Part shown: piece after piece, positions 1-15,739 of the stretch
How the letters are laid out: each line of letters begins with the position of its first letter
How positions within the stretch are numbered: the stretch's first letter is position 1
Origin: Linnemannia hyalina
Lineage: Eukaryota > Mortierellomycota > Mortierellomycetes > Mortierellales > Mortierellaceae
Direction of reading: 5' to 3'
Assembly: GCA_019671135.1 (NCBI GenBank)
Contig: JAHRHY010000029.1
Coordinates: 124,001-188,000 of the forward strand
Length of the DNA stretch: 64,000 nt
Position numbers and translations under genes: made by a program
The notes under the pieces: generated by a model
Told to the model about the DNA's origin: nothing
The model's database searches: none
The model's input: the letters and a program-made list of their open reading frames with translations, nothing else

Positions 1-1669
1 TCACCCGCGAACCCACAGAACTCCCAGCCGTCCCTGACTTCAAGGACGTCTTCAAACACCAAAAAACAGTATGCTCAGCACAAACCAACCTTCCCCTTGC
101 ACTTCAACTCGACAGCGAACTATCACCATTGACAATTTTCACACTCTTCTTCTCCGACCCGGTATTGACGGATTTGGCAGACAACACTAACGCATATGCA
201 GCATCAAAAGGAGCCGGCACAGGAGAGGGATCGCGCCAATGGGTAAAGACCACACCTGACGAACTGCGCACATTCCTCGGCATCATTGTCTACATGGGCA
301 TGTTCAGGCAGAACTCTGTCTCTGAGTATTGGTCAACCTTCTCTGAATGTCCTCAACACAACATCACTAACTTCATGTCCCTCGTCCGCTTCGAACAACC
401 GAAGCGTTTTTTTCGTGTCTCCAACCCCAACGAGCCTGAGCAACATTGGTTCTCAAAAGTAGAACCTCTTTCGACCAAACTCGCTACCGACTTCGCTCGT
501 TACTACGTTCTCTCCACCAATGTGTCCATCGACGAGATGATTGTTCGCTTTTCAGGAAGGAGTGCTCACACCGTACGCATGAAGGGTAAGCCTACCCCCG
601 GAAGGCTACAAGATTCTCGCTCTTTGTCAATCAGGATACACCTATTCCTTCCTCTACACCCCTCGCATCAAATCCATCATTGGCATAGACAGGATAAACG
701 AGCTTACTCCAACCTCTTCCGCTGTTGTTCGTCTCGCCAAATCACTCCCCTACAAGACTCGTCCATTCAACATCTACATGGACAACTATTTTCCAACATC
801 CCGCTTTTCAAGCACCTACGTGGACTCAACATCGGCGCATGTGGTACCACCCGCATCAACTCAGCCTGCTTCCCTGACACTTTGAAAGTGGGTAAGAGTG
901 AGAAACTACAATGGAATACCCTGACAGGAGTTGTTATCGACAAACAAGTTCTTGCCGTCGTTTGGATGGATAATGCACCCGTCACCATGCTGAGTACCAT
1001 CCACAAAATCAACACGGATGATGACTTCATTGAGCGTATTCGACGCTGCCCTCGCAACACTAGCACTAACGCAGCCAATGCTCGGGCAATATTCAATGGT
1101 AAGCCCAGAGCGGCACTCAAAATCCCCAAGTTGATTGATGACTACAACCACAACATGAATGGCGTCGATGTCAGTAACCAGTTCAGGGCATATTACAGCA
1201 CCCAATTAACCGTGTTCAGGACGTGGATGCCTCTCTTTTTTGGATTCTCGACACCACCATCGTCAACGCCTATCGAATCTATGTCGTCCAAAAAGGATCC
1301 CTTTCTCACAAAACTTTCTGTCTCAGGTTGGCATGGGATTTGATCAGGAAGGGAGCAGAAAGCAAACAGCACATGGACTACAGCAAACGGACACGAGTTC
1401 ACAGAGCCACCAAACCAGAACCAACCAAGAAGATATATGTTACCAAAAATTGCTCTGATCTGCCCACCATCCGTTTCACCCCAGGACCCCACTCACCCAT
1501 AATTCTCGACCAAAAATCCAACTGCTTGTTCTGTCGCTTCAGAGCCACTGTCTTCGACGACAAAAACCACGATAGAAAAACTCAAACAGTCATAGCCTAT
1601 GAGATCTGCAATGTTGCCTTGTGTATGTCAAAGGCCCGCAATTGCTTCAGAGAATTCCATAAATCGTAG
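1..1669 (+). pseudogene. piggyBac-family transposase pseudogene (5' end outside window)
   Basis: The frame is open from the window edge, so the element continues to the left. Recognisable piggyBac (DDE_Tnp_1_7) landmarks are the FLGIIVYMGM stretch, the YWS segment, SIDEMIVRFSGR (first catalytic Asp region), NIYMDNYF (second Asp, in a shifted frame), LRGLNIGACGTTR, MNGVDVSNQFRAYYS and a C-terminal Cys-rich tail with CLFC, CNVALC and CFREF. Coding is shifted by one base from about 600 to 790 and again near 1215, so at least three frameshifts break it. Catalytic positions can still be traced but no full protein can be made. No terminal repeat or TTAA duplication was identified; the left end is not in view. 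Confidence 0.88.
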
Positions 1670-2317
1670 TTGTAGTTGACACCATAACCAGTAATGAGAA
1701 GCACCCCTCTGATACTAATGCAAGATAATAACAGATATGAAGAACAAAAAAAAAAGGCCCCTAATGCCTAAAACACCCCTTTTCGGATTGGTAACATATG
1801 GCGGTGCATGTGACTAGCACGAATTTTTTGAATGTGTGAACGGTCAAGGGGTACAGGGTCACGCCAAAAAAAAAAAAAAGACCGCCTGTCGCGTCGCGTC
1901 GCTAGGGAGCAAATAAAATGTCCTTGGGCTGCCTTTTCCCACTCCAACACCTTTGCCAAGTTCGCTCATGGAATCCTAAGTGGACATCGTTGATCAGGAC
2001 AGAGATCCAAACCAGAGCTACACCTAGTCTTCTGTAAGTGCATCGCTCTCCGTCTATTGGCGTCAGCTTGGATGACCAATCAATACCAGGACCTCGCTAA
2101 CCCCATGGCCGACTTTACTTCATTCTGTCAACAGATCAACTGCTCACGCGCCAGAAACCTTGCCACAGTAAGCTGACTTTTTGTGATTGGCAGCCAACTT
2201 CCCACCCTTTAAACCATAAGGAATGTACTGACGTCATTGTCAACAAACAAAAAAACCAATTAGACTCAATCGACCAACTTCTGACATCCAATCACTGCGA
2301 CCTCCACCCCACCCCTC

Positions 2318-2352
<35 letters not shown>

Positions 2353-2486
2353 ACATCCGCACGGCTCACGCCCCTGCTTCATTAAGGTATTATCACGTTT
2401 CAAATCCGCCGACATTGTCCGCCCAATGTGGTGTTTGTTTCCATCTTCTGATGAGCTTTTCTTCATTCTTTCCTTTACAGTCAGTC
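1670..2486. repeat. Intergenic stretch with (CA)n microsatellite
   Basis: No supported gene lies between the piggyBac relic and the XPG-like gene. A CA dinucleotide run occupies 2319-2355. A short A-rich tract sits near 1746-1760 and another near 1867-1879. A pyrimidine-rich stretch ending in tcctttacag lies just before the ATG at 2487 and may be a 3' splice site of a 5' UTR intron or part of the promoter. Confidence 0.6.
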
Positions 2487-4109
2487 ATGGGCGTCAACGG
2501 ACTCCCAGGAGAGATAAAGAACGCGACGGGCATTGCGCCGGCGAAAATGAACGGCAAGGAATTTCACGTCGACATGAACGGTACCTACTACGGGTTGATG
2601 AAGGCGCGAGCCTACTCTGTCGTACAAAAGTACACGACCACGCTGACGCGCAACACCGAGCCCGCCAACCTGCACATGCCACAGATGGAGGATGCGCCAG
2701 AGCGACCCGAGTCGACAGACTCTGCCTCTCCAGACCCGAACGATGCCCAGGCGGACCTTCTGAGACGTGCGAACATGCTCTTTGGTCTCAAAGATAAGCT
2801 TGCTATGGTGACGAGTGGACCCAACAGCCCCGACTCTGTCGTCGTTGACAAAGATGGGATGTTACAGGATGGCACGGACCAACAGAGAGTTATGGTAATG
2901 AATCTTCTTGAGGACTGAATGCGGGATTTAGCATGGGTCCACTGGTGATTATTTACTTGATTAGTTAATTATCATTTGCTATATCGTCGTTTGCTTGAAA
3001 TAGTTCTTCGGTCACATTGCAGATGAACTGTACAGGAAGCTTTCTCAGTTCTGTACTCCCGAAGACGAATCTGTCACCCTTCACTTCGATGGAGAGCCAT
3101 CCATTCAGAAACAGGCGGAGCACCGAGCTCGCGACGACAAGCTGCGTAAGGGCACCGATGCACTTCACCAAACAATCGAACAAGCACGTGTAGTGGGTGG
3201 ATCTCGTCGAAAGGCTGCTTACAAACGGTGCAGGAATCTCTACAAGCCAACAATCGTAATTCAAGGAGAAGTTATAGCGGAGTTGATCAAAAAGTACGAC
3301 TGCCATGTATGCCTCTGCCGCTTTCAGTCGGATACTTGCATTGCTAAGCTTTGTGCCCAGTCTCTGAATCCCCAGGACATCATTGTTGTCTCCGGTGATT
3401 CGGACTTGATTTGTTTCGGGGCTGTGCCGAGAGTGTTGTATCCGATCGGCAAGTCAAGAGAGCTCACTCTTTTCGAAAAGGATGCGATTTTGGAGGTCCT
3501 CGATTTGCCTTCGGAGCGGCATTTACTACTCGCGGCTGTTGTGACGGGCAACGACTACACCCGGGGAGTGCCATATTTCGGGATCAAGAAGATCTGCGAG
3601 ATTATTCGGGAAATGGAGCTACCCGGCTCTGACGTCGAATCGTTTCGTTGGTACGTCCACGAGTTTCTCGTTCGAGTGCGACACCAGCTTCTTTCCGAGA
3701 GAGTCCCTCGGAAGAAACGAAAACGAATCGACTCGCAGCTATCGGTTACGGTTGACGACTTCGAGCATGCTTTATCTGCCTTTGTGGGCGTCCAGGAAGA
3801 TGCCGTATCCTCCGTTGATCAGAACCCACACCCTCAGCCTTTTACCAGTCAACAGCACACATCGATTGAGCAGGGAGGGCAGCGAGACTGTAATGCGCAC
3901 GAGATTGTCATGAGGGCACTGCTCGATCTTGAGTAACAGAAGGTTGCAGAGGCTCAGGCACGTGCGGCAATGGGATTCACACCACCGATGGAGGACAAGA
4001 AGCCGGCTCCCAAAACGAATGTAAATCGGACCAGGACAGCGAAAACGCAGCGAGCTCGCTGGAAGGCAGCGAAAAGGAACAGGAAACGTAAAGCATGGAG
4101 GAAATCCAA
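2487..4109 (+). CDS. XPG/FEN1-like nuclease module (copy 1), upstream part of a putative XPG-Fanzor gene
   Basis: Exon 1 is 2487-2894 (136 codons, starting MGVNGLPGEI like FEN1-family MGI.GL starts). The intron is 2895-3003 and exon 2 starts at 3004. Motifs run in XPG order: HVDMNGTYYGLM (N-region Asp), VTLHFDGEPS, FQSDTCIAKLC (I-region, with Asp where Glu pairs are usual), VSGDSDLICFG, and TGNDYTRGVPYFGIKKI (H2TH-like). The frame meets one TAA at 3934, then runs on through a basic tail rich in Lys/Arg to 4109. There a GTAAG donor opens a 92-nt intron (4110-4201) whose acceptor enters the Fanzor frame. The family cleaves flap or branched DNA. The expected outcome is either a truncated 447-codon product or, if the TAA is absent in relatives or read through, a fusion. 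Two diverged relatives lie at 8.8 and 13.7 kb. Confidence 0.8.
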
Positions 4110-4201
4110 GTAAGACAATGTCACATTGACGTCTCCGGGTTTGCATAAGTTATGGAGATGTTTCTAAGTCTCTCTAATATATTTTTTTTGTGGTTAATTA
4201 G

Positions 4202-6883
4202 GTTCAAGTCTCGCACTGACAATCAGGTTCGGTACCCTCCCCACAGGGTCAGTGATCCGTCGACAGCCACCCCTGTTTCTGATAATCAACTGTCGACAAT
4301 GTCCCCGTCACAACCAAAAAAGCGACCCGTCGACAAGCAGCCCAAGGCTGTTGAAGATTCGCCTTCAGCATCCTCGTCATCGTCGACAGACCGCTCGTCG
4401 AAGAACAAAAGACGGAAGGCGTCATCCAAGAAAAAACTCGCGAGACCACGCGACATCGATGCAACCCCAACAGCACCAAAACTTAAGGACGCTTTCAAGT
4501 TTGCTTTTCCGACGATAACCCAGACAGTTGGTTCCTTGAAAGGATGCCTGCGCCGTAGCCTTCGACCCCTCGGGATCTCTGATGACCAAGTCGACACCAT
4601 TGCGAGCCGCCTGGAGAAGGCCACGAGCCTGATCAATGAAGCTCGTCCCCACGTGTTCAGGATGATACAGCTGTTTTTACTGGAAGAAGTCACAACAGCG
4701 TTTAGCCCGCAAGGAGCCTCAGGGGAGACGAATGTCGATCTGCTGGACCTGGTGATGAACAAGGCTTCCGGTCAGATGTTCATCCGTGGATTAATGTCGT
4801 TGGCCTTGAATGGGAAGATTGTTGAGAAAAAGTGCAAGAAGTCCGAGTCCATCCGTGCTCGAGAGCTCACACAGAGGGTCTATGCCCGATACAAGACGAT
4901 CATTCCTCACTTTTCGCCCATTAACACTACCGACATCCCCCTGGGCGACATGCAGATGGAGTTTGGACTTGCCACGATGGTATGTCTCCACACACACTTC
5001 AGAAAGCTACCGTCTACTGTCACTGGAAAGGTATTTATTTCTTTCTTGTTTGAGTTATGTTTGATGCAATGTCAAAATGTTTTTCGTACTCTAACAATGT
5101 CTTACCCGCGCTTTTGTGTAGATGGTAAAACTGGGATGGAGCAAAGACATCATACCTCTCGTTGACGGAGACGTGCCTCCTGAAGCCCAACGACAGCAGG
5201 ACGACGACGCTCTAGACGAATCTCCAACGACTGAGCCCCTGGGATCAGACGAATATGCGGCCGACGACGACGGATGCTACAAGTTCAAGGCGGGCTTTCT
5301 CAGGGATTGGTGGGACCACTTACTCTCGCTACCTGCAGAGAAGCGACCTGTGTTCTGTCCTCAGCCGAAGCTTCGGGGTGCGTTTGTGATGATACCGGAG
5401 CGAGCAGTGTGGAGAATTCTATGGGGAGGAACTGCGAGGAACAATCCAGCCAAGACGATCGTGGAGACGATTTTGAGTCGCGCGGAGGCGTCGGATTGTG
5501 TTGATTCGGACTATGGAAAAGTGCTTGAGACGCTTTTCTATGGGCGAAGAAGACCCGTTGGCCACGACAACGACGGAGGACCAGACCTGAGACGGACACC
5601 CTACGCAAAACGGACGACAAGAATGGCAGAACTTGCGGAAGGTGATCCTTCTAGGTTTGGTTATCGGTCATTGCAGGACTACTGTAACAGGAAGCTGGCC
5701 TACCTTCGAGCTGCTGCGAACTGTCGGGATGAAGGAGTACCATGTACGCAATCACCGCCAGAGTTTCCCGCCAACCCCAGTACAAAATCACGCTATGCTT
5801 TGAACAATATGATTCGAAGTAACGGCTTGGAGCTGCAGGTCCTCGCCTACGACACCAAACACGAGCCACATGGAGCCCTGGATCCAGTCATGCGTATCGA
5901 AAAAGTCTTGCCTGATGAGGACGCTATCGCCAGGATATTCCAGGGAAAAATACCACAATGTCGCGGGTGGGACCCTGAGGAGTTGGTGACGGCGGCTTTA
6001 TGTCTGATCGAGCACGAACGTGAGTGGAATGGAGCACCAGACCCTGGGGATCAACCTGTGACCAACCTAATGATACGTCGAGCAGCTTTATACTCTCCCA
6101 CCACTGCAGCGCGATCCGAAAGAGAGAGAGTCAAAAACAGGAAGCTTCAAGTGGTGCCGGGCGAGAGTATCGATGGAGGAATTTGGGCGAGGGGTGTCGA
6201 TCCAAAGGGAGCCAGGACAGACGTACAGTCCATCCAGGAGATCGAAAGTTGTTTGCCCCCAAAAGGCCAAGTAACCGTGGAGGATTTCAAGGATGCTGTT
6301 CGTGTCAGAGTGTCTACAGAGCCCTTGCTTCGGGAGTTTGAAGGCTCACTACGCATGAAAAAAGCCGCCTGGGAGGAGAAGAAAGCCGTTCGTGCCGAAC
6401 TGGATATGGCTGTGGCTGCAATCCTGCGCTTTTGTGGACCGGAGCCGTGTCTTATTGCTATTGGCAACGGCAAGTTTCGAACGGGGATAAACTTGGCTTC
6501 CAAGCATGAGACATTACAGAGTCATTTTGCCAAGAAGGTACCGTCATTATGCCGCGACAAACAATTATTTACTTGCTCAATTGTCAACGTTATGCTATGG
6601 GACCATTCAATAACCGTCAATCTTCTATCTAACATAGGCGCGAGCACATGGCCACATTGTCGTTTTGGTTGATGAATATCTGTCCTCGACCGTTTGCCCA
6701 GCTTGCACTGCCCGAGGAGAGACCTCCAGGATGGCAAAGCCGACTTCAAGATCTTGTGTCTGCCTCGCCTGTGGTCGATGGATCAACAGGGACTCGGTTG
6801 GAGCTCACAACATTGCACTGATCGCTGAGCAATGGCTCTTCGATCAGTCTCGACCGATCTCTCTCCTTCGGCCCAGCGTTTAA
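4202..6883 (+). CDS. Fanzor1-type TnpB-like RNA-guided nuclease
   Basis: Exons are 4202-5030, 5122-6537 and 6638-6883, with introns in phase 0 after the first join. If translated alone, the ATG at 4299 gives 797 aa. Counting from there: a basic NLS-like region (KNKRRKASSKKKLARPR) near residues 33-49; RuvC-I Asp at about 488 in LQVLAYDTKHE; a RuvC-II-like strand CLIAIGNGKFRTG; the relocated Glu at about 729 in VLVDEYLSSTVC; a C4 zinc finger (CPAC then CLAC); and RuvC-III Asp at about 768 in NRDSVGAHNIALI. The Glu placed directly before the zinc finger is the hallmark of Fanzor rather than prokaryotic TnpB. All three acidic residues and the finger are present and the frame is undamaged. The family uses a guide RNA usually encoded at the 3' side of the gene. 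Confidence 0.9.
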
Positions 6884-6986
6884 CCTTCACAATTGTAAAG
6901 ACCCCGAACAGGTCATACCAAGTTATCCTTGTGACTGGCAACGGTCGAAGGGATACAGTGAAGACAGTGGTCTTATGACCTTTTTA
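6884..6986 (+). other. Fanzor 3' flank, candidate guide-RNA region
   Basis: This is the short stretch between the Fanzor stop and the MITE. Known Fanzor and TnpB loci encode the guide (omega) RNA across the end of the gene or just 3' of it, so this is where one would be expected. The segment 6959-6980 has an imperfect inverted counterpart at 7138-7160 inside the neighbouring MITE. The role is inferred from family knowledge only; no RNA structure was computed. Confidence 0.25.
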
Positions 6987-7455
6987 GAAAGTTTTCGCAG
7001 ACCTCATTTTTCCTTCGTTTCGTAGTCACAGTGGCTCATATTCAATTTATGTTGGTTGAAACGAAAGAAATCCTTCCCAAATTTCCTTCCGGGAAGGACA
7101 AACGGGAAGGATTTCTTTCGTCCCAAAAAGGCAGAAAGGTCATAAGACCACCGTCTTCAACTTTACAGCCATGGGAGGGGTCAGAAAGCCTATTTTCTTC
7201 TGACCGCAGCATGTGCGACTGAAAAATTCCTGCGAAACAACTCATTTTTCCTTCATTCAGTTTTCCTTCGTGGAGCTTTTTCAACGAAGGAAAATTGAAT
7301 CTGCGAAAATTTTCTTTTGGGACGAAAGAAATCCTTCCCAAATTTCCTTCCGCGAAGGAAAAACGAGAAGGATTTCTTTCGTCTCAACCCACATAAATTG
7401 AATATGAGCCACTTGACTACGAAACGATGGAAAAATGAAGTCTGCGAAAACTTTC
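6987..7455. mobile_element. 469-bp MITE with ~90-bp TIRs and TA target duplication
   Basis: Long terminal inverted repeats begin GAAAGTTTTCGCAGAC and end GTCTGCGAAAACTTTC. They match over roughly 90 bp with a few mismatches and are flanked by TA on both sides (6985-6986 and 7456-7457). Two further internal copies of a motif containing GAAAGAAATCCTTCCC face one another. There is no coding capacity. TA duplication and palindromic layout fit a Tc1/mariner-mobilised MITE. It lies 103 bp past the Fanzor stop. Confidence 0.88.
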
Positions 7456-7700
7456 TATTGTTCTGCCTGTCCATCTCGCTGACGTTTAAAAGTGAAGGAA
7501 AAGTGATAGGAAGATAAGTTGATATGGAAGTTCCTCTCGTGGTGGTTCCTCTTTTTTTATGTGACGGAGTGGGTGCTCTCTCAGCCTCTCTGTGTTTTTT
7601 TTGTAAATATGGAGAGGACCCTGCTCGCAGAATCAATAGTAGGGATAAATTTCGACCACAAAAAGTGGTCGAAAACAGACGAAGGGATAAAGATGATGGG

Positions 7701-8483
7701 CTAACACTTGACATAAGGCTTGTAGCGAATGAGCATGCGATTGTCTTCATAGTACCGGTGCTTGAACGTATTGACGTCGATATTGCAGACGGACTTGCGA
7801 TCCTGAAGAGCGAGTAGGGCCGACATCTGGACATCCTCGTGCTTTTTGTGGTACTGCAGCTCTGCTCCGTTTTCCCGGAGTTGCTGCTTCAAATAGTCGG
7901 TCTTGACCAAGAACAACGGCCCGCTGCTCCAAAAGAATCCATCCGCCTCACGCATCGCCCCAGCAAACTTGCAGTCGGATTTGATGAACGCGTCTACCAA
8001 ATCATCGAGGACATCCTTGGAGACAATTGTATCGTCGTCCAGTTTGACAATGACCTCGTTTTGATCCACTATTTGGGAGAAGCGGCCCGACTGAAGCCAC
8101 TCCTGCGCTTTGAGGCCGAGCTCATCATAGTCGTAATCCTTGCTCATCTTGACGTCGCACATCCGATCGGAGTTGGAGAGATCACAGACCTTGACCGCCT
8201 GAGTGACATGCCAGAGGACCGAGGCAAACGGACTAACAGTACATCCGAGATACATGTATATCCCATACATGCTGGTAGTAGGCTTGAGCGATGATGAGGA
8301 TCCCGTGGTGATCATGTGCAAGTCGCTGACTTCAAGGTCCAGTCTGTTCCTCCAGGTATAGTACTCAACTTCGATGTTGACAGTAGAGACGAGGACAATC
8401 ATTAGAATGACCGAACCGATGATGATCTTTTTCAGATGGCTTCGAGGCATCCAGTTTAGGGCTGACCAGGGGCTTGATCTCAT
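7701..8483 (-). CDS. GT31-like glycosyltransferase, type II membrane protein
   Basis: 260 aa, apparently intact. Residues 19-33 form one hydrophobic segment (IIIGSVILMIVLVST) after a short basic N-terminus, which predicts a Golgi/ER type II signal anchor. VIVKLDDDTIVSK (Asp149-151) fits the metal-binding DxD of beta-1,3-glycosyltransferases, and KHEDVQMS (215-222) fits the later EDV motif of GT31. The lumenal domain is short for GT31, so an unrecognised upstream exon is possible; the ATG at 8483 is the first in frame. The acceptor sugar cannot be told. Its 5' flank carries a tandem repeat and the gene is bracketed by a 23-bp inverted repeat. Confidence 0.7.
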   Translation of the reverse strand: MRSSPWSALNWMPRSHLKKIIIGSVILMIVLVSTVNIEVEYYTWRNRLDLEVSDLHMITTGSSSSLKPTTSMYGIYMYLGCTVSPFASVLWHVTQAVKVCDLSNSDRMCDVKMSKDYDYDELGLKAQEWLQSGRFSQIVDQNEVIVKLDDDTIVSKDVLDDLVDAFIKSDCKFAGAMREADGFFWSSGPLFLVKTDYLKQQLRENGAELQYHKKHEDVQMSALLALQDRKSVCNIDVNTFKHRYYEDNRMLIRYKPYVKC

Positions 8484-8518
8484 GATTGATATAGATGTAG
8501 TGCTGAAATAGGCGGCGT

Positions 8519-8612
8519 GGGAGTGAGGATGAGTTGCTGTCGAAGTGAGGATGAGTTGCTGTGGAAGTGAGGATGAGTTGTTGTGGAAGTGAGGATGAGT
8601 TGCTGTGGAAGT
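8519..8612. repeat. 22-bp tandem repeat, about four copies
   Basis: The unit contains GAAGTGAGGATGAGTTG followed by CTGTG and is repeated about four times with one or two changes per copy, directly upstream of the glycosyltransferase start. On the opposite strand the text (ccacagcaac tcatcctcac style) resembles the promoter-like stretch at 31.73-31.81 kb, suggesting a shared upstream sequence family. Confidence 0.75.
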
Positions 8613-8843
8613 GGAAGAATGAAAGTGGAGTGCTGGCGAAAAACACGTCTGGGCGCCAGGGTTTCAGGACAATGGGCGCATCAATTACGTCACCGAATTG
8701 ACAAATCGTACGCCAAACGCAAACTACGTCACCGAAGCGAGTAGGCGTGCGTTCTCCCGAAACCCAAATTCGATCGTCTGTTTTCGACCACTTTTTCAGA
8801 CGCCTCTCACTCAGAATAAAAGAGTGTGAATCAACCTCCATAA

Positions 8844-9330
8844 ATGAAATTGACTCCAAGACAGAAAGGAAAAAAAGAAGAGCGACTCGCTGGGAACGGA
8901 ATGAAGAAAGATCAGACCAAGAGATGCGAAGTCAACTTATCATCGATGTTTTTTGCGTTGGTGAACGCGCTGAGTTTCCATGAAACGGTGCAGTTCGTTG
9001 CAAAGTCGGCCCGACGTCATATGTCTAACCACGCAACAACATCGACACAGCAGACTTCATCCGGCCCAGAGCGAGCAACCGACGCCGATGACGCGGGCAT
9101 GTCTACTCACACAACAACATCTACACAGCAGGCTTCATGCAGTCCAAAACGAGCAGTTGACGTCGAGGATGAGGACATCGCCGACACTGCTTCCTCTAAC
9201 AAACGCCTCCGACCCCTCCAGCTCCGGCTCGTCGACTCTCGTTGAAGACATGCAACGATTGCTGGCGACACAGCCATCCCAGATTAGGTTCGACGAGAGT
9301 CCTCGTGATCTCCTTATTGCCTCTCTGCCC
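8844..9330 (+). pseudogene. XPG-like nuclease, N-terminal fragment (copy 3)
   Basis: The piece EVNLSSMFFALVNALSF aligns with VDFPAMFFALLNSRAF of the copy at 13.7 kb and with HVDMNGTYYGLM of the copy at 2.5 kb. It is followed by a Ser/Thr-rich linker and, after a change of frame near 9220, by LVEDMQRLLATQPSQI, which matches the end of exon 1 in the 13.7-kb copy. Nothing after that is recognisable as XPG, so only the first exon survives. It is a frameshifted 3'-truncated relic. Confidence 0.6.
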
Positions 9331-12460: not shown

Positions 12461-13709
12461 GGTTGACGCTATTGTTCCAGGAGAGTGTAGAGTGATGAGT
12501 GTGCAAATGTGTGGTTGACTTAAGGTTCGTTATTTGTTTACTGTGTGTGCTTTTGTATATAGGCGAGAGATAATAGGGGCTCAAAGGGCCAACAAGAGAA
12601 GCAGAGGTACAATGAGAGAGGCAAAACGAGACATGAAAGAGACAAAGAAAGAACCAAAAAGAGAAAGGAATGAGACAAAGAGAGTACCAAAAAGAGAAGA
12701 AAAGAAGAGAATATGGTTTGCGATGTTGACCATCACCCAAGGTATGAATAAAACAGGCTATTATTTTTGTTTTTTTTTTGAAGCAAAACAATAGCCCTGC
12801 CATTTCCACAATAAACTCTTGGGTTATTGTTTTGGTGACTTCATGCTGCATGGTGTGGAAACAAAGAGAGAGAGAGAGGCAAAAGGAAAAAGGAGAGGGA
12901 CAATGAGATAACAAAAAGTGTTTGTGATGGTGACATCATCCACGGTATGCATGAAGCAGGTTATTGTGGAAATGGTTTCTTGATGTATGATATGGAAACA
13001 AAGAGGGAGAGAGAGAGAGAGGCAAAAGGAAAAAAGAAAGGGACAATGAGAGAACCAAAAAGAGACATGAAAGAGACATGAAAGAGACATGAAAGAGACA
13101 TGAAAGAGACATGAAAGAGACATGAAAGAGACATGAAAGAGACATGAAAGAGACATGAAAGAGACATGAAAGAGACATGAAAGAGACATGAAAGAGATAT
13201 GAAAGAGATATGAAAGAGACAAAAAGTGTTTGTGATGGTGACCATCATCCACGGTATGCACGAAGCAAGTTATTGTGGAAATGTCAGGTTATTTTTGGGC
13301 TTTTGTTTTGGCGATTTGTTCCTGAATGGTATAGATTATATCGCTTGTGTGTGATGATTGAGTGATAGTGGTCTCGACATGTAATCCTTTGTCCTTTCCA
13401 CTGCCCACTTTTCCTATAAAATCCCGCTTCCATTTTCCTTCTTCCCTCTTTCTTTCTTCCTCTCTAACCACACTCTCCTCAGCACACCTCACATCTCACA
13501 CTCTCCTCCACATCCACCTATTCCTCCACATCCACCTACATACTACTTTACATATATCTTCGCCACACCCTTTCGAAGCAACCCACAACAGCCATTCTGT
13601 AAGGCCGATGCTGGATGTGATTGCGAACCGTACTCATTATACCCTTTCACAACTTATCAAGCAAGAAGACTCACACTAGCTCTCACACTTTTCTTAACAT
13701 AGTTCAAGA
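12461..13709. repeat. Purine-rich intergenic DNA with a 12-bp minisatellite
   Basis: From about 12590 to 13230 the top strand is dominated by GA-rich words. Between 13062 and about 13200 the 12-bp unit GACATGAAAGAG repeats about eleven times in near-perfect register. A longer unit of roughly 130 bp (containing gtttgtgatggtgacc and tgtggaaac aaagag) recurs three times in degenerate form at about 12725, 12920 and 13230. The apparent reading frames here are repeat translations. No gene was recognised; 13360-13690 is C/T-rich and may be the promoter of the next gene. Confidence 0.75.
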
Positions 13710-15401
13710 ATGGGAATCGGTGTCCTTCCTTCATGGATCAAGGAGGCCTCCGACGGAATCAGGAAGATCTCACCCAAAAAACATGCCATGTGGACTTTCC
13801 GGCGATGTTTTTCGCCCTGTTGAACTCGCGTGCATTTTACGGAACCGTCAGCATCGAAGCCAGGCAGGCCCGACTGCACCACTCACTAAAAACAACTGTC
13901 GCTACCAATGTACCAGAAGGCGAACAAAAACATACACATTCGCCATCGGGGTCTGAGGGGACCGAGTCGGGGAGTCCGTCCATCAAACATGCTCGCCTCA
14001 CATTGGGAGCTACCTCAGGCACAAGTACATCGACCGGTCCTGTGTTTGTTGCGATCCTCCTGGCTCGGTTCCGACAAACCTTATGACACAGGTCCAACAC
14101 CTATTGCAAGGAGGACCAGCTCAGATCTTTCTCCACAGCAATGGTACTCTCACAACAACACGTACCGAAAACAAAGGCATTGTAAGTACATTCGATTTTC
14201 AAATACGACCGGCAAAGACAAAGCTGCTGTAAGAAATATACCTAATACTATCTCATCGCTTTGGGTTATCAATAGGACTATGGCCACATAGGCCAGGTTA
14301 TTCACGACATCCTCACGAAAAAAGTCTCACAGGGGCGCACAACAATCCATGCCGACGGTCCCGTTCGGTCGAGAAAGGGCACGCCCATCAGAAACGGGAC
14401 CGTGATCTAACAACGCGGATGAGAAAACTCATGGAGGACTACGACGAAGACAAGATCAAAGGGACGAAACGGCTATACCGGCGCCTAAAGTCTGTTTATC
14501 GGGCACCACCCGATGCCGCGAGACAAGTGCTGGATGCTCTTCAGAATCTGGGGTGGACAATATGTCGCTGCCCCCACCAAGCTGACTGCTGTATTGCCCG
14601 TTGTCTCAATAATGCCGTCAAGCCGGAGGATGTACGAATCATCACCAAAGACTCTGACTTGTTGGTCTATGAGGCCTCTACATCGATCACTATTCCTGTC
14701 GGCAGTCAGTGGAAAACATTCCAGAAGCAGGACCTTATGGATCGACACCAGCTCCCCACTCCAGCCCACCTTCTTCTTCTTGGTATATTAACAACAAACG
14801 ACTATACCGACGGCGTTCCTTACTATGGCTTGGTGTCGAACGCTGACATTGTTCGGACGTTTACATTGGACGGACTCGACGGACTGAGCGACCAGGAGCG
14901 ACTTGGACAATTCAAACACCACGTCATTCAGCACTTGAAGATTGTATACGACAGCGCCGACAAGCTCCAGAAGATCGCAGAGGAGTCCTACCTCCAATAT
15001 GGGAGACACATGCGACTGTATGAGAAACACGCCAAAAGGACCTTGAACAGGGTCGAGAAGACTCAGTACCAGAAGAACGTAAAAGACAGCCAGTTCGATC
15101 ATGCCCTTCAGGCGTTCGTGATGTGCACCGAGCATCATTTAACTATGGGTGGGACCGAGACGACTTCCAGCACACCCGATATCCACAGCCTTGTCACGAC
15201 TATCATTCAGGAAGTTGAGATGAAAAAGGCGAAGACCAACTGGGAGCGATTCACAAGGAGCCAAACATCACATACAGGATCATCAGCGCCCGCATCTATT
15301 ATCGACCAAGCACCTCCACTCTACAAAAAGAGTAAAAAACAAGAAAGGCGCCATGGCTCACGCGCCCGGTCAAGGAGAAGGCAGAAATGGCAGAGGACAA
15401 A
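13710..15401 (+). pseudogene. XPG/FEN1-like nuclease module (copy 2)
   Basis: The start MGIGVLPSWIKEASDG at 13710 matches the MG-start of XPG/FEN1 proteins. A frameshift near 13790 is followed by VDFPAMFFALLNSRAF; an intron lies at about 14172-14275; then DYGHIGQVIHDIL and HADGPVR. A second frameshift near 14370 leads to EKGHAHQKRDRDL, HQADCCIARCLN, ITKDSDLLVYE and TTNDYTDGVPYYGL. A basic tail ends at 15401 in a GTAAGT donor in the same phase as copy 1. After the 106-nt intron the acceptor exon shares TGAC and CAGGTTCG with the first Fanzor-side exon of copy 1, but the sequence then runs into a mariner relic. The Fanzor part is absent here. Confidence 0.78.
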
Positions 15402-15739
15402 GTAAGTACTTTTTAGCGTCATCTTCAGTTATATCCAGCCACTTGTATTGACTTCTATTGCTTTTGTACTAATATCATCTCTTTTGACATTTAAAACTGC
15501 TGTACAGCCTGACCAAAATGCGCAGGTTCGTAGTAATATCGTCATGGTATGCTCATACAATGCGCACTAAAATTTTAGAATGTTTGGCATTAAATTTCCT
15601 TGTCATCACTCCATTTGAAACAACTTCGCTTTTTTTGGGCACTGCCCGGTATTATCATATAAAGTACGCTGTTGTCACCTTGCCTTCCCTCATCATACAC
15701 TTCATCTCAACAAGACCTCCACACACTCTTTACAGCTCT

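Follow-up and report, generated by a model that had tools for sequence, protein, structure and literature searches.

The 64,000-nucleotide stretch of the Linnemannia hyalina genome analysed here (hereafter the window; positions 124001-188000 of source contig C22 in a 51.5 Mb assembly) very likely carries a DNA transposon of the Mortierellaceae, the family to which L. hyalina belongs, in which one spliced gene encodes a 5' nuclease of the XPG/RAD2/EXO1/FEN1 type, a basic linker and a Fanzor nuclease. That a fused two-nuclease protein is encoded is well supported: the XPG-Fanzor composite suggested by an initial annotation of the window occurs as intact five-exon genes in this genome and as annotated two-half proteins in eight Mortierellaceae genera, and in structure prediction one chain matches both EXO1/FEN1 and Fanzor. 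The window copy itself is a broken, degraded member of its family. Its gene consists of the following features:

2487..2894, forward strand: exon 1, XPG N-region (MGVNGLP...HVDMNG), from the open reading frame (ORF) and the joined frame, with the same exon in relatives
3004..4109, forward strand: exon 2, XPG I-region (FDG, GDSD and NDY motifs) and basic tail, from the joined frame and profile comparisons
4202..5030, forward strand: exon 3, post-joint motif RFKSRTD and then the Fanzor N-terminal lobe, from the family alignment
5122..6537, forward strand: exon 4, Fanzor with the region of the RuvC-I aspartate, from the joined frame and motif comparison
6638..6883, forward strand: exon 5, Fanzor TNB domain with RuvC-II, zinc finger and RuvC-III (PF07282, 39.8 bits, cut-off 26.3)
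2895-3003, 4110-4201, 5031-5121 and 6538-6637, forward strand: introns, all GT-AG, with phases 0, 2, 0 and 0 given by exon lengths
4110..4201, forward strand: joint intron, GT-AG, phase 2, in the same column in 6/6 aligned families; phase 2 also in loci L055 and L056
3934..3936, forward strand: in-frame TAA, private to the window copy and a sense codon in the 8/8 other near-full-length copies

Joined, the five exons give 1335 codons including the final stop, in line with the five-exon gene of approximately 1330 codons first proposed, and the 92-nt intron that had been seen to link the XPG tail to the Fanzor frame is the conserved joint intron. If this intron is left unspliced, the XPG frame stops at TAA 4111-4113. 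Before its final stop the joined frame holds a single stop, the TAA at 3934, which had been reported as the sole break and is indeed the sole break of this frame in the window copy. It is found in one of nine near-full-length copies of the family, and was for this reason rejected as a true gene end. Three of the nine are open throughout (L040, L041 and L045, the latter holding approximately 1 kb extra) and five are frameshifted (L042, L043, L044, L046 and L047); L044 has an earlier stop too, and L047 is without the left end. A tenth copy, L048, comprises the last 1.2 kb only.

The window XPG exon used as query gave 68 matches in the genome, merged into 64 loci. At 55 of these a TNB match lies downstream on the same strand, 1.9-4.3 kb off, with approximately 0.005 expected per locus; the two modules are not always unlinked in relatives, whereas constant unlinking is what the initial annotation had named as speaking against a composite. 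With a second XPG query added, an XPG partner was found at 62/91 TNB loci (43 of the 84 second-query matches entered this pairing, the rest being taken as loci already counted). Eight divergent loci (L049-L056) were then read, of which L053 is decayed and was excluded from the joint counts, and a frame change limited the reading of L055 to the part up to the post-joint region; neither L055 nor L056 is in the joint-column alignment. Uninterrupted proteins of 1460, 1459, 1351 and 1397 residues are encoded at L049, L050, L051 and L052, respectively, all with intron phases 0, 2, 0, 0, and a 1295-residue protein with phases 1, 2, 0, 0 at L056, which belongs to a distant group. The spliced L054 protein has one stop and one non-GT exon boundary.

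The joint intron interrupts a codon that occupies the same alignment column in L040 (representing the window's family), L049, L050, L051, L052 and L054, and the peptide just after the joint is F[KR][SR]RTD in these six families. The best argument for a coding, read-through joint is the clustering of post-joint differences at third codon positions: over 40 post-joint codons the share of first, second and third positions that differ between L051 and L052 is 15%, 13% and 72%, and the corresponding values for L049 and L054 are 35%, 14% and 68%. In the remaining 13 pairs the third position is again the most divergent, with a weaker contrast. In L050, L051 and L052 the joint motif is followed by a first methionine after 89, 113 and 136 residues; in these families no methionine precedes the conserved Fanzor residues past the joint, and a separately started Fanzor would therefore lack them.

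Three database searches, in which the approximately 7988 candidates sharing most words were scored, gave 52 proteins. Fifty of these carry a species name, in each case from a genus of Mortierellaceae, and P0005 and P0051 carry none; with approximately 7988 candidates scored, absence outside the family is a weak indication. By local comparison both halves are present in 31/52 proteins, from Linnemannia, Mortierella, Entomortierella, Haplosporangium, Dissophora, Podila, Benniella and Actinomortierella. Among seven proteins scanned, P0024 and P0034 passed the Pfam cut-offs for both XPG_I and TNB, and the other five for TNB only. P0005 (913 aa, from a 4503-base contig) is unbroken across three L049 intron positions, and our guess would be that it is transcript-derived.

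At C23:1074471-1074785 an XPG-like match lies in a 1398-codon open frame with TNB 3.5 kb downstream, possibly an intron-poor fusion; the Fanzor search listed no match near this frame.

Pfam matches of the window XPG exons were below cut-off only, and since single-exon matches are sub-threshold, the XPG half was assigned by profiles and folds. The group 2 profile matched RAD2 at 1.8e-13 and the window-family profile matched RAD2 at 4.4e-4 and EXO1 at 4e-4. The predicted structure has the XPG/RAD2/FEN1/EXO1 fold, with EXO1 and FEN1 ranking above XPG. Residues D168, D249, D271, D273 and D323 (P0002 numbering) are invariant in nine rows; the assignment of catalytic residues in the module is one that we presume from FEN1/EXO1. 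The module has the fold, the XPG-I region and the acidic motifs in common with EXO1, FEN1 and XPG (RAD2), and may act as a 5' flap nuclease or 5' exonuclease. It differs from these enzymes in being transposon-borne and fused to an RNA-guided nuclease.

The Fanzor half has the C-terminal zinc finger/TNB domain and, in the predicted structure, the Fanzor fold. By motif patterns RuvC-II and RuvC-III were detected in 14/14 proteins and RuvC-I in 11/14, the misses being the window copy (GWDPEE), P0034 (LALDLG) and P0028. RNA-guided DNA cleavage by this half is putative; the label of nickase given to this half at first finds no support. Downstream of the gene lies one further element feature:

6884..6955, forward strand: noncoding right end, which may form the 3' part of an omega RNA, with predicted hairpins at 6900-6914 and, terminal, 6924-6955; the same layout in 5/5 predicted family folds

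In the window's family 72 nt separate the Fanzor stop from the element end. The L051-family right end is common to ten further places at 96-100% identity, eight of which stop 68 nt past the Fanzor stop while the remaining two extend farther by 3 and 9 bases, and the L052-family right end is common to 11 further places, ten of which stop approximately 56 nt past it, within a few bases. The right ends of the window copy, L050, L051, L052 and L054 all terminate in AAGGGATA, those of L050 and L054 being placed by this motif alone, and that of L049 is interrupted. Two hairpins are predicted in the right ends of all five families, and the stem sequence of the first varies by family. In SpuFz1 the end of approximately 80 nt yields a 75-nt scaffold and a 14-15-nt guide, according to the part of the report available (PMC10432273). 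Because the element right ends resemble this short noncoding end, we propose that they may give rise to an omega RNA.

The conserved right end of group-2 loci is another one (6/6 loci aligned, out of eight looked at): in L001, L003, L004, L005, L006 and L008 a strongly conserved stretch CTTCGGTGACGTA...GCGCCCATT lies downstream of the Fanzor stop and probably represents the right end of a further element type. As this end differs, the fusion would ride in at least two kinds of element.

Pieces of these elements lie elsewhere in the window. Positions 13319-15483 match the 5' (XPG) half of an L051-family element at 97% and end just before the joint acceptor. A piece of the group-2 right end is at 8660-8784 (minus strand; 90% to L005), adjoined by a fragment of L052-family XPG exon 1 at 8896-9299 (88%).

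Guided cutting combined with 5' resection that favours homologous copying is the most likely mechanism, and we put it forward tentatively, as a little short of probable; the coupling of end processing to target cleavage suggested in the initial annotation is likewise tentative. The guide RNA from the element right end would direct the RuvC domain to an unoccupied target or empty donor site, which it would cut; the attached XPG module would trim or resect the 5' ends at the guided break; and repair would be steered to recombination with an element-bearing copy, thereby retaining the element or copying it in. A parallel exists in that truncated Exo1 coupled to Cas9 raised knock-in, as stated in the available part of that study (PMC10572186). 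The fuller picture would be a homing machine, evolved in Mortierellaceae, that both cuts and resects with a single polypeptide and has spread over two or more kinds of mobile element, with intron retention perhaps freeing the resection nuclease alone; this is possible, and we hold it with some reserve.

Several observations weigh against these interpretations. No TNB was found at nine of the 64 XPG loci, 29/91 TNB loci have no XPG partner with the two XPG queries, and 21 of the 52 database proteins match one half only. Most of the database proteins come from gene prediction, and a bias of the predictor could be common to them; splicing of the joint intron is judged from P0005, the gene models and conservation. 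An early methionine occurs 32 residues past the joint motif in the window's family, 22 in L049 and 31 in L054, which permits a separate Fanzor start in these three. The window's group has Q247 (P0002) where EXO1 has glutamate, and its XPG activity may therefore be altered; group-2 proteins read E-A-D at this site. The right ends fold with modest z-scores (-1.8, -1.9, -3.5, -0.4 and -1.8).

The main rival to cutting with resection, which we regard as somewhat unlikely, is that the XPG module cuts at the margin of the R-loop that the Fanzor guide RNA opens and so helps complete the double-strand break, in place of resecting ends. XPG is among the fold matches of the module, and purified XPG cleaved the 3' R-loop flank, as related from earlier work in the part of a later paper at hand (PMC7286691). 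However, SpuFz1 makes RNA-guided double-strand cuts with no XPG-like module described in the portion of its report available (PMC10432273), and EXO1 and FEN1 outrank XPG in the fold comparison, a rank that does not settle function. Unlikely as well is a regulated choice in which the joint intron is either kept, in which case translation would usually stop at once and give XPG alone, or spliced to give the fusion, both products being of importance. Phase 2 together with a GTAA or GTGA donor places a stop right at the donor in seven of eight loci (the window copy, L049, L050, L051, L054, L055 and L056), but L052 has none, so that the donor stop is not universal, and it arises as a side effect of combining phase 2 with a common donor. 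That the XPG module serves the transposase, trimming flaps at excision or insertion, and is merely carried along with Fanzor, appears quite improbable: a piggyBac-like transposase match lies within 8 kb upstream on the same strand at 27/64 XPG loci, but none was found in that search at the other 37, and since group-2 fusions have a different conserved right end, the constant partner of XPG is Fanzor. Two neighbouring transposon genes merged only by gene predictors, an arrangement with which the stop at 3934, an ATG at 4299 that could start Fanzor in the window and the early methionines of L049 and L054 would agree, are rejected as highly improbable on the post-joint codon pattern, the methionine positions in L050-L052, the conserved column and phase of the joint intron and the unbroken P0005.

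No description of an XPG-Fanzor fusion appeared among the papers listed in searches of the open literature (subscription papers and supplements being outside this scope), in line with the initial annotation, which knew of none, and the passages of Fanzor papers searched contain no mention of an XPG-type fusion. What appears to be new is a Fanzor with a second nuclease. To our knowledge, the role of Fanzors, which are eukaryotic RNA-guided nucleases, for their transposons is still open. That a 5' end-processing nuclease is kept in a single chain with Fanzor family-wide suggests that this role includes controlling repair, which the two-nuclease chain makes testable through separate active-site mutants. 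The Fanzor1 proteins SpuFz1, GtFz1 and PpFz1 have in common with the present proteins the RuvC D-E-D motifs, the zinc finger and the fold, as well as, in the passages available, carriage as transposon cargo with a short noncoding stretch from stop to right inverted repeat (PMC10432273), whereas the N-terminal XPG/EXO1-type nuclease of approximately 350-400 residues and the basic linker are extra here. PpFz1 too carries an additional domain, but another one: FRI, inserted into RuvC, which binds cyclophilin (PMC11423790, in the part available). Engineered Cas9-Exo1 likewise joins a programmable nuclease to a 5' resection nuclease (PMC10572186, in excerpt), but it is man-made and Cas9-based, and XPG-Fanzor would be its natural, Fanzor-based counterpart, diversified across a fungal family and offering naturally selected linkers and partners. 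A DEDDh nuclease is an accessory in P and piggyBac elements, going by the available part of its description (PMC3627910); both cases are accessory nucleases in DNA transposons, the one here being XPG and fused to Fanzor.

The element that carries the gene is wider than the 2487-6883 first delimited, since comparison of copies places its start 500 bases upstream of window base 1 and its end at 6955:

1..6955, forward strand: in-window part of the transposon, shared by copies with the same end base; inverted ends TATCCCTTCRACCGTT
123..1229, forward strand: piggyBac-like transposase, DDE_Tnp_1_7 match (PF13843, 139.8 bits, cut-off 22.4)
6940..6955, forward strand: right terminal inverted repeat AACGGTCGAAGGGATA, from compared copy ends

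The ends of the element are TATCCCTTCAACCGTT and the reverse complement of AACGGTCGAAGGGATA. Flanking DNA is unlike between copies, with the exception of L041 and L043, both on C4, whose common flanks give them the look of a segmental duplication. Elements of the piggyBac type usually use the site TTAA. The DDE_Tnp_1_7 transposase is common to piggyBac transposons and this element, but the ends here carry TA, within or adjoining the inverted repeat, and no TTAA target duplication was seen, nor any duplication longer than TA in the flanks of the eight copies having both ends; a TTAA-type piggyBac element was thus rejected. Related transposase frames extend to approximately 1669, the 1178-1669 frame being a sub-threshold match only. 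Judged from the ORFs of five printed copies (the window copy, L040, L041, L042 and L044), the transposase frame is seemingly disturbed near 583, and at 583-885 conserved transposase-like residues run on in another frame; the transposase is for this reason possibly inactive, or the element moved in trans.

Adjoining the transposon right end, positions 6985-7457 carry inverted repeats that recur downstream of L049 and at several genomic sites, and look like a small mobile element. On the minus strand, 7701-8663 is an open frame of 320 aa that by eye resembles a membrane-anchored glycosyltransferase.
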